Positions 7,025 through 35,175 of a stretch of 64,000 bases of DNA are shown here, one piece after another. Numbering within the stretch: the stretch's first letter is position 1; every line of letters starts with the position of its first letter. A model generated the notes under the pieces. The model was not told the origin of the DNA. It saw only the letters and a program-made list of their open reading frames with translations, and did no database searches. The stretch lies in NCBI RefSeq assembly GCF_008935075.1, contig NZ_CP044545.1, positions 2,793,587 through 2,857,586 on the forward strand, written 5' to 3'. This DNA comes from Pradoshia sp. D12. GTDB lineage: Bacteria > Bacillota > Bacilli > Bacillales > Pradoshiaceae. Both the position numbers and the translations under genes were made by a program.

Positions 7025-8473
7025 CTACTCACCTACCATCCCATCACCATCGTTATCCCGCATATAAGGGTACAACCAGTGGTCACTCGTTATAGGCATA
7101 CTGAAACCTGCATCTTTTGCTTCTTTAATCGTCACCTCACCATTACCGTTCGTATCGACACTAGAAATATTACCGCCTGTATTTGAACTGATTGAGTTTT
7201 CACTTGAACTAGTTGAGTTTTTACTTGAACTGGTTGAGTTAGAAGACTTGCTTTCTGTTAAACCAAGTGATTGGTTTACTTCATCCGGGTTAACATTGTC
7301 AAATTTATCTACAACTTTGTTGCCCTTGATGGTATACGTATACTTATAGCTTGAAGGAACCTGTGTTTTTGTATTCGGATAGGTGATAATTGCTTCAAAA
7401 TTTGTCGCACCACCTGCATCACGAATCACTTTTTCCATATATGCTTGGTCGCCATACCTGTTCAATGTACTTTCTTGTGGGGTAATATTATAAGCATTCG
7501 ATACCCCTCCTAGAGAGTCAGCTATGATATGTCCTTCATCAAAATTATCACTTTCAACACCCGGAACTTTTGCCTCATCAGAGTAATATCTACCAGATGA
7601 TGTTACAGGCTCGCTACTGTCATCTTGTAGAATAATCTCGTCCGCAATGACACGTACTAGTTGCCCGTATTCATTAGTAAACGCCCAATATTTGCGATCC
7701 CCATAGCCGATATCCACGACAACATTGGGTTCACGATAACCAGATAAATCGCCACCATCCACTTTGATAAGTTTGTATCCTGAGAACTGTGTCTCCTCTT
7801 TTTTCTTAGCTTCCGCCTTTGTCTTAGCTTCTGCTTCTGCCTTTGCCTTAGCCTCCGCTTCCGCCTTTGCCTTAGCCTCCGCTTCCGCCTTTGCCTTAGC
7901 CTCCGCTTCTTCCTTTGCCTTAGCCTCCGCTTCCGCCTTTGCCTTAGCCTCCGCTTCCGCCTTTGCCTTAGCCTCCGCTTCTTCCTTCGCCTCAGCCTCC
8001 GCTTCCGCCTTTGCCTTAGCCTCTGCTTCTTCCTTCGCTTTAGTTTTTTCTTCCTCTGCTTTAACCGTACCTACTTCTTGCTGTTGCTCTACCTGTGCGC
8101 TACTATCAGCAGACTCTTCTACTGGAGGAATTATTGAACTTAAAGTAATACATAATATCGCTGCAGCACCAAAAATCATTACTACATGCAACCTTTTGGC
8201 TTCAGGAGCTCTCTTCAAAACAAAGCTCGGTTTAATTAAGCCCACAAATAAAGCTGCGATAGATACTAGAAATAGGATAAGAAGCAAATTATCAATTACT
8301 GAAGGTGACAGTATCCAAATAAAAGATACTGCTATTGCGCCCCCAAAAACCCGCCACACAAATGGCTTATTTCTTTTAGTTTCTGGAAGCCATGAAAGAA
8401 CAACGTTCGGATCATTCAAACCTACGATTAGACCTAGAAAAGATATTAAAAGCAGTCCAACCAACAAAGCCAT
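7025..8473 (-). CDS. Membrane-anchored DNA/RNA non-specific endonuclease with Excalibur-like tail
   Basis: 482 residues in four parts. Residues 1-115 carry about four membrane helices built from two related halves, each with VGLxxPxxVL, PExKR and FGxA. Residues 135-225 are a low-complexity Ala/Glu/Lys linker. Residues 230-400 hold a nuclease domain of the Endonuclea_NS_2 type with DEGHIIADSLGG and YNITPQ, the expected catalytic His and metal-binding Asn region. The C-terminus has an Excalibur-like calcium motif (DTNGNGEVTIKEA, then DNDGDGMVGE). I start at ATG 8473, which follows GGAGG; the frame runs on to 8515 without a better site. The likely job is hydrolysis of nucleic acid outside the cell, in nutrition or competition. 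Confidence 0.85.
   Translation of the reverse strand: MALLVGLLLISFLGLIVGLNDPNVVLSWLPETKRNKPFVWRVFGGAIAVSFIWILSPSVIDNLLLILFLVSIAALFVGLIKPSFVLKRAPEAKRLHVVMIFGAAAILCITLSSIIPPVEESADSSAQVEQQQEVGTVKAEEEKTKAKEEAEAKAKAEAEAEAKEEAEAKAKAEAEAKAKAEAEAKAKEEAEAKAKAEAEAKAKAEAEAKAKAEAEAKTKAEAKKKEETQFSGYKLIKVDGGDLSGYREPNVVVDIGYGDRKYWAFTNEYGQLVRVIADEIILQDDSSEPVTSSGRYYSDEAKVPGVESDNFDEGHIIADSLGGVSNAYNITPQESTLNRYGDQAYMEKVIRDAGGATNFEAIITYPNTKTQVPSSYKYTYTIKGNKVVDKFDNVNPDEVNQSLGLTESKSSNSTSSSKNSTSSSENSISSNTGGNISSVDTNGNGEVTIKEAKDAGFSMPITSDHWLYPYMRDNDGDGMVGE
7807..8040. repeat. 24-bp coding tandem repeat in the nuclease linker
   Basis: Units of the form GCCTTTGCCTTAGCCTCCGC plus TTCC recur about nine times in the plus-strand reading. 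Every third unit or so has TTCTTC in place of TTCCGC, so there is also a 72-bp higher-order period. Each 24-bp unit codes for eight residues of the Ala/Glu/Lys linker, so gain or loss of units keeps the frame. Copy number probably varies between strains. Confidence 0.85.
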
Positions 8474-31661: not shown

Positions 31662-32828
31662 CTATAAATAAAGACAAGCATTTAAAATTGGTTTTGTATC
31701 CCGATAAATTTGTTCAAATTGTGATAAAGGAAGTGGATTGATTCCTTTACCCAGCTCTAATGTAAATCCAGGCTTCTTGAACTGATCAATAAACCAATCC
31801 TTAAAGCCTGCATGGCTATCAATATAGCGAACGGCCTTGTAGCCAGATCTTGCGGTAAATTCCATAGCCATAACAGAGGTGATTTCCGGCTCTTTTTTCT
31901 CATATCCCCAGTAAAATTCTTCTCCCTGGGTGTGCAGAGAAACTACACGATCGAACCCTTCCTTCAGCACAAGTGCAACCAGTGATTTCACTTCACTTTC
32001 TGTTAATGGCTCGATTCCAGGAAAATCTCTTGCTGCTGGTTTTTTCGGCCGTTTTCTCTTTTTCTCAATCTCCCAGTTTGCCGGAAATTGATTATTTAAG
32101 TCAACTCCTCTAATATTCGCTTTCCAGCCTAAAAATTCTTTTCTTCCATCATTCATCCTAATTAAATCTTTTTTCATTTTTTCAGATGGACCATTTACTA
32201 CTAAATCTACACCATCAGGATTCACCATCATAACAAGTGACAAATCACACTCCAGGAATAGCTCCAATGCTGAACATTCTCCTAAATTTGTCCCCGTTGT
32301 TAATGCCAGTAAATAATCATTCAGCCACTTCATTAAAACCAAGCTAGTAATCCATTCATTCGCATGCATCGAGGCATTCATATGGACTTTTTTCGGACCA
32401 ATACCAATTCGCAGTTCCCAAATATCCTGGCCAAGTTCAGATTTCCCGATAGATTTCATCTGCAGGAAAGGATAGATGGTTGTAAGTATTTCCATGTCAT
32501 TCATGCATTTACTTGATGAGTATGGACAAGTCTGATCCACAATACTATGTTGAATTTTCACAGGCAATCTAACAGATTGCTTCGGATTCTCTTCCATACT
32601 CTCCATTGAATTAGCTACCTGAATTCTTTCACGTTCTACAGGGTGTGTGATATCCAAGGACGATAACCTTTCCTCCCTTGTCCAATATCCAGGTATATGA
32701 ACCATATCGCCAACAGATAGCTCATTATTACTAATATGTAAATTACATTCCCGTAAAAGTGCGAACGGTATAGAATACAAAACGGCCAATCTCGATAATA
32801 AGTCAGGCTTCTTTATGATGACTTCCAT
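31662..32828 (-). CDS. yqgT: M14-family peptidase YqgT (gamma-D-glutamyl-meso-diaminopimelate peptidase type)
   Basis: 388 residues. An N-terminal LysM-like segment (LLSRLAVLYSIPFALLREC, then SVGDMVHIPGY) is followed by a zinc carboxypeptidase domain with NASMHANEW (HxxE zinc site), NPDGVDLV, RGVDLNNQFPANW, SLHTQGEEFYW and GFTLELGKG with the catalytic glutamate. It resembles the enzyme that trims cell-wall peptides at the gamma-D-Glu-meso-DAP bond, and should act on peptidoglycan or its fragments. I use ATG 32828 after AAGGATGTG. Confidence 0.88.
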   Translation of the reverse strand: MEVIIKKPDLLSRLAVLYSIPFALLRECNLHISNNELSVGDMVHIPGYWTREERLSSLDITHPVERERIQVANSMESMEENPKQSVRLPVKIQHSIVDQTCPYSSSKCMNDMEILTTIYPFLQMKSIGKSELGQDIWELRIGIGPKKVHMNASMHANEWITSLVLMKWLNDYLLALTTGTNLGECSALELFLECDLSLVMMVNPDGVDLVVNGPSEKMKKDLIRMNDGRKEFLGWKANIRGVDLNNQFPANWEIEKKRKRPKKPAARDFPGIEPLTESEVKSLVALVLKEGFDRVVSLHTQGEEFYWGYEKKEPEITSVMAMEFTARSGYKAVRYIDSHAGFKDWFIDQFKKPGFTLELGKGINPLPLSQFEQIYRDTKPILNACLYL

Positions 32829-33007
32829 AGAATCACATCCTTTTCTACTCATTTTATGAATACTCCGATCAAAAAATACAGAAGCTAACAGATATTATGT
32901 ATAGATTCGTAAAAAACAGCTTGATTATAGTTGCCTTTAACTGTATAAGCCTTTTTAGTATGCCATTTAGCGGGGTATGGGCTGGGGAAAGGCAGGGTGT
33001 AGATGGG

Positions 33008-33430
33008 GCATAGGTGTTTCATAGGTGGGGCATAGCTGCTTTCCTACACACTTCACCCACCTTTCAGGCACTTTTACCCCGGTATAGCTGGAGCATAGGT
33101 GTTTCATAGGTGGGGCATAGCTGCTTTCCTACACACTTCAACCACCTTTCAGGCACCTTTACCCCGGTATAGCTGGAGCATAGGTGTTTCATAGGTGGGC
33201 ATAGCTGCTTTCCTACACACTTCAACCACCTTTCAGGCACCTTTACCCCGGTATAGCTGGAGCATAGGTGTTTCATAGGTGGGGCATAGCTGCTTTCCTA
33301 CACACTTCAACCACCTTTCAGGCACTTTTACCCCGGTATAGCTGGAGCATAGGTACTTCATAGGTGGGGCATAGCTGCTTTCCTACATACTTCACCCACC
33401 TTTCAGGCACCTTTACTACCCCGGCATATG
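33008..33430. repeat. 85-bp tandem repeat array, five copies
   Basis: Units begin at 33008, 33093, 33178, 33262 and 33347, so the period is 85, 85, 84 and 85; the short step is one missing G. Copies are nearly identical. Each unit contains GCATAGGT, AGGTGGGGCATAGCTGC, TTCCTACACACTTCA, CCACCTTTCAGGCAC and TTTACCCCGGTATAGCTGG. Read on the minus strand, about half the unit is four 11-bp steps: AGCTATGCCCC, ACCTATGAAAC, ACCTATGCTCC, AGCTATACCGG. AGGTGGG and CCCACCT could form a stem in copies 1 and 5. GC content is well above the flanks. Degenerate pieces continue to the left (about 32970-33007). Confidence 0.95.
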
Positions 33431-33523: not shown

Positions 33524-33561
33524 GAAAAAAAAAAGGCATTAACCCGTATTGGATTAATACC
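33524..33561 (-). terminator. Terminator downstream of the DUF2332 gene
   Basis: On the minus strand GGTATTAA (33554-33561) pairs with TTAATGCC (33535-33542, one G-U) and is followed by ten T residues. Confidence 0.75.
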
Positions 33562-33628: not shown

Positions 33629-34676
33629 CTACTGACTAATTGTCCGCTCACTCTCCCATAACCATTTAAACCATCTGCCGTGCCCGTCGGTTTCTGCAAT
33701 CGTATTTTTGTTCAGAATGCCATCCAAATAATAATCCAGATGCAAATATCTATCTTGAATATTATTATAAATATGAAATACCTCCTCTCATCTTCCCAAT
33801 ATCCTTGATGGTTTCCAACAGATGCTTTTTCACATCCATTGGCATTTGGTTAGCAACATGTGTATGAAAAATACAAACAGCATGATTCTCTGGGATATCC
33901 TGTATACAGTCAGGTAATAGATCAGCGCCATCACCATTTATCAATCTTAAGGAACTCCCCTTCACATAGGCTGCAGCTTTTTCAAACATAGACAGCCGCT
34001 CCGCATGCTCGGGCCATATTAAGGATTTAAGCCACAATTTTTCGTCCTCAACATTTAAATCAACCGTATGTAAATCCAAGCCAATCCTAATTGAAACTGG
34101 CGGCGGCATGAAGGGAAGGTTTGGTACATTTTCTCCTTTTATTTCTGCTGAAATTGTAAGTTTAGATTCTGAATTTCCATAGGTACTTTCTTGCCCATAT
34201 GTATATGAATAGTGATCCCAAAGAAGCTGTAATCCTGCACTTGTTCCAATTTCAATAAGTGCCAAGGGTTTCTTTGCTATCTCATGAACAGTACAAAAGG
34301 CGGGGTACAGGTATGCACATCTTCGCACTTCATTGGTTTGAACCCGTCTCGATCTAAGAATAAATTCAATCTCTTCTCGATAAGTAAAGCAAAAATCCCT
34401 AAAAGGTCCATAAGATTCCATATATGCTTTCGGATACTCAACCAAACTAGGATAATACTCTTTCAGTGAATGTTCTTTACCCTTTAACAGAAGATAGTGG
34501 ACAGCACCGAATAAGAGATTTGGTACTGGCTGACCCTCCCTCGCATTCATACATATCTCTAAAAGCGCTTCATCTCCAGAAATTTTTATAGATAAGTGCT
34601 CGTATAGCCTGCTGGAGCCTATACATTCTCTTTCAGCAAAATTTATAAAGGTTTGAGACAGAACACTATTAAACAA
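33629..34676 (-). pseudogene. DUF2332 family protein, frameshifted near the 3' end
   Basis: The main frame (34676 to about 33777) reads a DUF2332 protein: FINFAERECIGSSRLYEHLS, PFRDFCFTYREEIEF, YLYPAFCTV, LIEIGTSAGLQLLWD and CIFHTHVANQ. It then runs into a premature TAA at 33765. The neighbouring frame continues seamlessly as EVFHIYNNIQDRYLHLDYY and ends WFKWLWESERTISQ at 33629, the expected C-terminus. One extra G in AGAGGAGGTA at about 33776 explains it; the total length is one base over a multiple of three. The proper start is TTG 34676, seven bases after AAAGGGGG. Function of the family unknown. Confidence 0.82.
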
Positions 34677-34734
34677 ATGGAAACCCCCTTTTAAAACTAA
34701 ATAAATGACACCCGCTGTTTGATTTTGATTGGCT

Positions 34735-35175
34735 TCATTCACCTATAGCTCCCTCACGATACTTACCATTAAATTCTACATAAAACGGCTGAATGCTTTC
34801 GTCCAGACAATACTCGATTCTTTGTCTAAAATTATTCCAGGTTACCATTTCCAATGCCTCTGCTATGGGATAAAAACCTACCTCTAAACTTTCAGGGCTG
34901 GTAGTGGGAGTACCTCCAATCGCCTTACCCAAGAATAAGGTGTTACAAATAGAATGGTCTATATTTTGAAAAACACCACAAAATTTAGTTACTACGATAT
35001 CAATCCCCGATTCCTCTTTTGTTTCTCTTATCGCAGCATCTTTGAGTGACTCGCCTTCCTCGACTTGTCCTCCAGGCATTTCCCACCCCCGGTGCGGACC
35101 CCTAATCAACAAAATTTCCCCAGCATCGTTTAATACAACCGTTGCTGCAGATACAATATGCTTCGGCACCCTCAT
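34735..35175 (-). CDS. NUDIX hydrolase
   Basis: 146 residues. GGQVEEGESLKDAAIRETKEES at about residues 36-57 fits the Nudix box GX5EX7REUXEEXGU. The enzyme should hydrolyse a nucleoside diphosphate linked to another moiety, such as an oxidised nucleotide or ADP-sugar; the substrate is not predictable. It starts at ATG 35175 after GAGGG. It lies just upstream of the broken DUF2332 gene on the same strand. Confidence 0.88.
   Translation of the reverse strand: MRVPKHIVSAATVVLNDAGEILLIRGPHRGWEMPGGQVEEGESLKDAAIRETKEESGIDIVVTKFCGVFQNIDHSICNTLFLGKAIGGTPTTSPESLEVGFYPIAEALEMVTWNNFRQRIEYCLDESIQPFYVEFNGKYREGAIGE

Follow-up and report, generated by a model that had tools for sequence, protein, structure and literature searches.

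What is a GC-richer tandem array doing in the spacer between two genes of a Pradoshia chromosome, and is it anything more than an accident of that spacer? The window analysed here is a 64,000-nucleotide stretch of the chromosome of Pradoshia sp. D12 (3.93 Mb, hereafter G000), which was compared with two congeners (G001 and G002). In this window, TRF detects a tandem array at 32996..33416 (C1:2826594-2827016 in genome coordinates) with a period of 85 bp, 5.0 copies, one of them of 84 bp, and 96% matches; from the position of dnaA and the skew, it is assigned to the minus strand, which is G-rich and corresponds to the leading strand. The five units of about 85 bp described in the original prediction are recovered in this way, and its steps of 85, 85, 84 and 85 bp hold when its own anchor is used, as does the higher GC content (51% in the unit vs 38% in the whole window). 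Judging from its sequence and its 11-bp self-match, a representative unit (33084..33168, minus strand) is made of about eight 11-bp steps, one half being inverse to the other, in such a way that the plus strand shows four CATAGSTGNNN steps and then inverse CACCTTTNNNN steps. The proposed 11-bp period, and with it the phased core, proved real, since lag 11 is the top self-match lag inside the unit consensuses of all three species (0.503, 0.502 and 0.513, with the next-best lag at 0.39 or less), but the steps per unit are about eight and not four. The inverse half-unit had been missed, as had the genome-wide family, the replication polarity, the place after terminators and a neighbouring gene for a REP-associated tyrosine transposase (RAYT). 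Two further candidates, a coding array and a CRISPR array, were rejected in line with that prediction: a period of 85 is not divisible by 3 and a single base is deleted in one unit, and it is the entire 85-bp unit that repeats at 96%, vs the identical repeats with unique spacers of a CRISPR.

Read in the leading sense, the array is preceded by a DUF2332 ORF (33765..34742, minus strand) whose 3' end is apparently broken and by a terminator-like hairpin with a T-run (33525..33561, minus strand; script scan of the sequence), the T-run being 118 nt upstream of the array, and it is followed by a zinc carboxypeptidase gene (31662..32852, minus strand; Peptidase_M14, PF00246; the yqgT of the original prediction). 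The DNA similarity to the DUF2332 locus of a congener extends to about 33660, beyond the end of the ORF, which is in keeping with the 3' truncation suspected originally.

Is the array confined to this spacer? A BLAST search of the same chromosome for more copies of the unit matched 12 places including the array itself, and 11 further places are more than chance would give. Seven array units were used to build a sequence-only model, which recovers the same 12 places, and two weak ones lie outside them (294k, E 0.005, and 3540k, E 0.015), both in the expected orientation. Seven of the 12 are tandem arrays of 85-bp units according to TRF, and the remaining five (32k, 338k, 1710k, 2229k and 3404k) are short or degenerate pieces in which TRF finds no repeat. 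Units from different arrays are 65-87% alike and those within one array match at 89-96%, and the recent expansion or conversion upkeep that had been suggested is supported. A sample of G000 (20 x 20 kb, 10%) contained three larger tandem repeats (period of at least 30, TRF score of at least 150), and there was no further family member among them. The members at 243k, 338k and 32k stand directly past 5S rRNA terminators and have common flanking sequence, as if they had been duplicated together with the rRNA operon.

Regarding the relatives, the model of the G000 unit gives weak clustered matches in both congeners, where TRF finds arrays of the same plan, i.e., purine-rich 11-bp steps followed by inverse steps, built on a different motif, AAAGGTGGGNN and its inverse. 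From 53 loci given to TRF, nine of which had no tandem repeat, 44 arrays with periods of 45-120 were kept for the three species; four G001 arrays split by an insertion sequence (IS) count as two halves each for length and identity, a fifth split G001 pair (C12/C4end) counts as one array for unit length, and L142 (G002 3160k) was excluded, as TRF found no array there. The unit is 63, 74 or 85 bp long (11n-3) in 41 of these 44 arrays and 62, 62 and 75 bp long in the other three, with a copy number of about 2-18 per array. Using BLAST, the G000 unit was found in none of 60 other genomes, congeners included, and a model of the congener unit (R2) had matches in two of 397 genomes from 135 genera of the order, which were both congeners; this search applied strict filters, scored 12 candidates per genome and missed G000 itself, so that more distant versions may have escaped it as well. 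Neither of two exact patterns had a match in a genome-contig database (its own and very near records being possibly excluded), and there was no family match in the plasmids or phages searched, nor any description of this array family in the literature searched, with partial coverage. A degenerate 16-base pattern was also tried as a probe for the genus and turned out to be uninformative in G001 and G002, with counts near those of the reversed control. According to the original prediction, a lack of copies in the genome and in relatives would have pointed to a neutral minisatellite; that plain version fails, because copies are abundant in G000 and arrays of the same plan exist in both congeners. 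As a description, a genus-wide, replication-polar and fast-rewritten satellite family is near certain, and the window array is best read as belonging to a family of REP-like satellites specific to the genus. On the practical side, such arrays break short-read assemblies, G001 contigs ending in them, and they would serve as fast strain markers.

The polarity of the family can be seen from the position of dnaA (0.4 kb for G000; 4.09 Mb on a 4.15-Mb contig for G002) and from the GC skew of the G000 sample, which changes from positive to negative between 1.88 and 1.94 Mb. At the seven G000 places up to 1.71 Mb the plus strand is G-rich and at the five from 2.23 Mb the minus strand, so that the G-rich strand is the leading strand at 12 of 12 places (7/7 for the tandem arrays alone), although 1710k is weak evidence for it because its two strands score 30 vs 25 bits. 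It is also the leading strand in 16 of 16 G002 arrays among the matches listed, where the GC skew of the flanks has the expected sign in every case among those listed (at 3713k, with a mixed motif, 14 vs 11, the orientation was taken from the model). On contig C1 of G001, seven of the eight arrays among the matches listed agree in orientation and the one at 589k is opposite; this exception (C1:588959-589179, L151) is placed between two ORFs, without an adjacent terminator.

Do the arrays simply follow the genes? Leading-strand genes amount to 276 of 356 in the G000 sample plus the window, and the chance of an orientation of 28/28 would be about 8e-4 if the arrays followed genes and about 4e-9 if it were random. 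Moreover, two G002 loci have lagging-strand genes on either side of the array, both genes being conserved in G001, and yet keep the array in the leading sense: at 84k these genes encode a cell wall hydrolase and a chlorite-dismutase family protein, and at 3172k a class V aminotransferase, presumably serC-like, and a HIT protein (Pfam). On the basis of these two loci, array orientation tracks replication rather than transcription.

This is the ground on which the main rival, a neutral satellite with replication-dependent polarity, has to be judged. Here, neutral or selfish minisatellites would grow and be homogenised by slippage or unequal exchange, would spread through occasional recombination and would last in post-terminator spacers, an account that suits the spacer location of the arrays and that we regard as possible but rather doubtful. 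Their polarity would come from replication-dependent stability together with the purine-rich bias of the leading strand, and the RAYT neighbour would be coincidental. The GC and AT skews of G000 do point the same way as the arrays; however, a bias in composition is not enough by itself to orient a motif at 28/28 places, and gene-following would do so only with the low chance given above. Replication-dependent stability in the form of hairpin avoidance on the lagging template was rejected as the cause of orientation, since the trend is the opposite: the leading-sense strand, exposed as lagging template, folds more strongly or equally in 36 of 44 arrays.

The same polarity could be accommodated by phased arrays that bind a protein of chromosome organisation or segregation, displaying one motif per helical turn from origin to terminus and with motif and protein co-evolving. 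This alternative would make sense of the 11-bp phasing and of the 11n-3 units, whose lengths are near 6, 7 and 8 turns, but no such protein is known and there is no terminus enrichment, the terminus-proximal third holding 3/12 G000 places and about 3/16 listed G002 arrays, with 7/12 and 6/16, respectively, in the origin-proximal third; it is regarded as unlikely. Selection on helical phase is not pressed from the unit lengths. Indels are rare inside arrays (25 vs 1239 substitutions, leaving out 19 one-base indels of G2_375k, a consensus artefact), and therefore 11n-3 lengths need no selection, which is in favour of the neutral account.

With respect to their immediate surroundings, the arrays are intergenic and mostly located directly past a transcription terminator. 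Applying a home-made rule, with the other flank as control, a terminator-like hairpin with a T-run is found within 200 nt upstream and in the same direction at 30 of 46 arrays, compared with 3 of 46 downstream; the terminator of a facing gene lies downstream at 14 of 46. Such a place would suit a transcribed structured element at gene 3' ends, and folding of the window unit as RNA, a check of the structured RNA proposed originally, gave a z of about -2 on both strands. Nevertheless, the covariation that a conserved RNA structure would leave was absent: the covariation term is unfavourable (+1.34) for the G000 units, and the congener units have neither two-sided stem changes nor any excess over shuffles. 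There is no credible Rfam match for the array either, and at the two G002 loci above it is antisense to both neighbours, so that structured RNA was rejected and a 3'-end element of this type is considered very improbable. The longest perfect stems measure 6.9, 7.9 and 7.6 in the three species vs 5.4, 5.0 and 4.9 in shuffled units, and the congener units have one conserved 7-bp stem with no compensatory change. G-quadruplexes were also rejected as a common feature, because the G000 arrays (2508 bases) have none on either strand, those of G001 have 20 and 0 on the two strands, and those of G002 have 15 and 13.

How stable are these sites, and how stable is what they contain? On the evidence of the flanking genes, 13 of the 16 G002 sites with listed arrays are array sites in G001 as well, with their relative orientation unchanged, and this sharing counts for binding arrays and against neutral minisatellites. 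The mean identity of the units at shared sites is 0.768 (17 pairs, one of them with G000 and split arrays taken as halves) vs 0.764 in the 320 other G001-G002 pairs, and five of the 13 shared sites have units that are 11 or 12 bp longer in one species than in the other (1267k, 1302k, 3172k, 3616k and 3887k). Sites persist between the sister species, whereas their unit sequence is mostly replaced; at 375k, 1948k and 2700k the closest unit is still to be found at the corresponding site, with 94% at 1948k. Between G000 and G002 the turnover of sites is high, which speaks against phased binding: only one of the 12 G000 places (201k) has a same-site array in the congeners, the rRNA-operon loci having one unusable flank. 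A 41-bp remnant, the weak match at G000 3540k, sits where G002 has its 375k array. In the interval between two genes that we take to be mbl and flhO, the match spacing is about 830 bp in G000, where an array is present, and 135 and 175 bp in the congeners.

The place at 201k deserves separate attention. It is the only site at which arrays were found in each of the three species (G000 201k, G002 3887k and G001 C19/C20), and one gene precedes the array there by 114, 97 and 48 bp, in that order. Its product contains PF01797 (IS200-like) in G000 and G001 and corresponds to the REP-associated tyrosine transposase model NF047646, with 85.6 bits in G000 and 97.2 in G002 (curated cut-off 80); the G001 piece, the start codon of which is not established, scores 77.5 bits and is under that cut-off. 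The HFH and YIHxNP motifs are kept in all three species and match the class 2 signature given in the accessible text of PMC6006769, which, for its part, reports no REP-like sequences near subclass 2.1 RAYT genes. The chance that a given gene adjoins one of the places is below 1% by a rough calculation (assuming about 3,900 genes and counting two neighbours for every one of the 12 places), and this adjacency is found at G000 201k, G002 3887k and G001 C19. There was no other RAYT copy in the fetched loci or in the 10% G000 sample, no array-like piece on the 5' side of the gene and no PDB match for the protein. Concerning the tag tetranucleotides, GTAG is unconserved in the leading-sense units (5/7 in G000, 4/21 in G001 and 1/16 in G002, with counts below the shuffled mean in the two congeners), and CGTC occurs in 0/7, 5/21 and 8/16, respectively.

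The best mechanism for the family is, tentatively, the upkeep of REP-like satellite arrays by the RAYT. This HuH/Y1 single-strand DNA enzyme would recognise the hairpin of the repeat in a single orientation, at the time when lagging-strand synthesis exposes the G-rich strand as template, and would cut and join there, seeding or rewriting arrays in trans; unit length and copy number would then be set by slippage and unequal exchange, in steps of 11 bp or of a whole unit. Action on the lagging-strand template would give a fixed polarity, many sites and turnover of content, and a repeat read there in one orientation would point in a single direction within a replichore, which agrees with the arrays observed. 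In the accessible parts of the respective sources, IS200/IS605 enzymes use the lagging-strand template (PMC6006769), and the E. coli TnpAREP cuts REP and not inverted REP (PMC8266576). The shared plan of the family, its polarity, the kept sites with replaced content, the RAYT at the three-species site, the stems longer than in shuffled units and the IS insertions into G001 arrays, which have a precedent in REPs, argue for RAYT upkeep and make it quite possible. Against it are the link through a single locus, the unconserved GTAG, the lack of an array piece on the 5' side and of compensatory stem changes, which keep it just short of an even balance. The G001 RAYT under the cut-off, the reversed array at C1 589k and the same-site best matches at 375k, 1948k and 2700k weigh in the same direction, and our preference stays guarded. 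A RAYT step in the spreading or rewriting of arrays is inferred, at about that strength. The stricter version, in which a resident RAYT reads lagging-template hairpins and rewrites arrays in trans at fixed post-terminator stations that outlast speciation while their sequence is replaced, is possible, on the doubtful side.

Among known systems, the REP/BIME elements are the nearest working model, by analogy. As partial accounts of REP, REPIN and BIME systems with their RAYTs have it, these share with the arrays an intergenic, dispersed location, inverse halves (which in the arrays may form hairpins), clustering in tandem, a sequence particular to the species, an adjacent RAYT (at one array here) and ISs landing inside. 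Unlike them, the Pradoshia family has a net orientation that follows replication and consists of long, homogeneous arrays whose units of 63-85 bp are phased at 11 bp, with GTAG unconserved. Because the tag is not conserved, REP/BIME membership is not claimed. Repeats of the REP/BIME-RAYT kind are not reported for this bacterial group in the literature searched, as far as its accessible text goes. Also comparable, within the accessible text of PMC3532100, are the STAR elements of Staphylococcus, whose function is given there as unknown: they are GC-rich intergenic direct repeats that expand and contract, stable in their loci, with loci that differ by species; they have, however, a 14-bp motif, TNTGTTGNGGCCCN, with spacers, mostly as single motifs per locus, and neither replication polarity nor a RAYT is mentioned in that text. 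By eye, the motif TNTGTTGNGGCCCN is absent from the window array and the unit consensuses inspected. The leading-strand bias of the arrays (12/12 in G000, 16/16 of those listed in G002) resembles that of AIMS/KOPS, which are single octamers rising towards the terminus (PMC5993296, accessible part), whereas the arrays are long and have no such rise. Borg tandem repeats are likewise fast-evolving arrays with strand-biased composition on replichores, but they are described, in the part of PMC9879509 available, as A-rich, error-free, nearly unique units, about half of them in genes, on archaeal extrachromosomal elements.

If the stricter version of RAYT upkeep were true, directionality would be the hallmark of what could be called a Bacillus-type RAYT-repeat system. 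The combination of polarity, kept stations and overwritten content makes a testable case for single-strand transposases shaping chromosomes. The abstract of PMC8266576 describes the spread of REP elements as poorly understood, and array orientation across the chromosome would be a read-out of a lagging-strand route for repeat spread.

In G001 the arrays also contain insertions of another element. An IS with a Mutator-family transposase (PF00872; L177:299-1465 for a G002 copy) is present in G001 (L176, L178, L180, L182, L184 and L186) and in G002 (L177, L179, L181, L183 and L185), and one of its ends lies inside arrays in six of six G001 copies and in none of the five G002 copies, with G001 contigs ending 77 bp into the IS. 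This parallels ISPpu9, which inserts in the REPs of P. putida (PMC8450116, accessible part). Another short dispersed repeat, TTTCGCCCTTAAAC / TTTCGCCCATAC, with irregular spacing, lies beside two of the G002 IS copies (L181 and L183). Within the window itself, a 24-bp tandem repeat at 7809-8043 has 9.8 copies and a length divisible by three.
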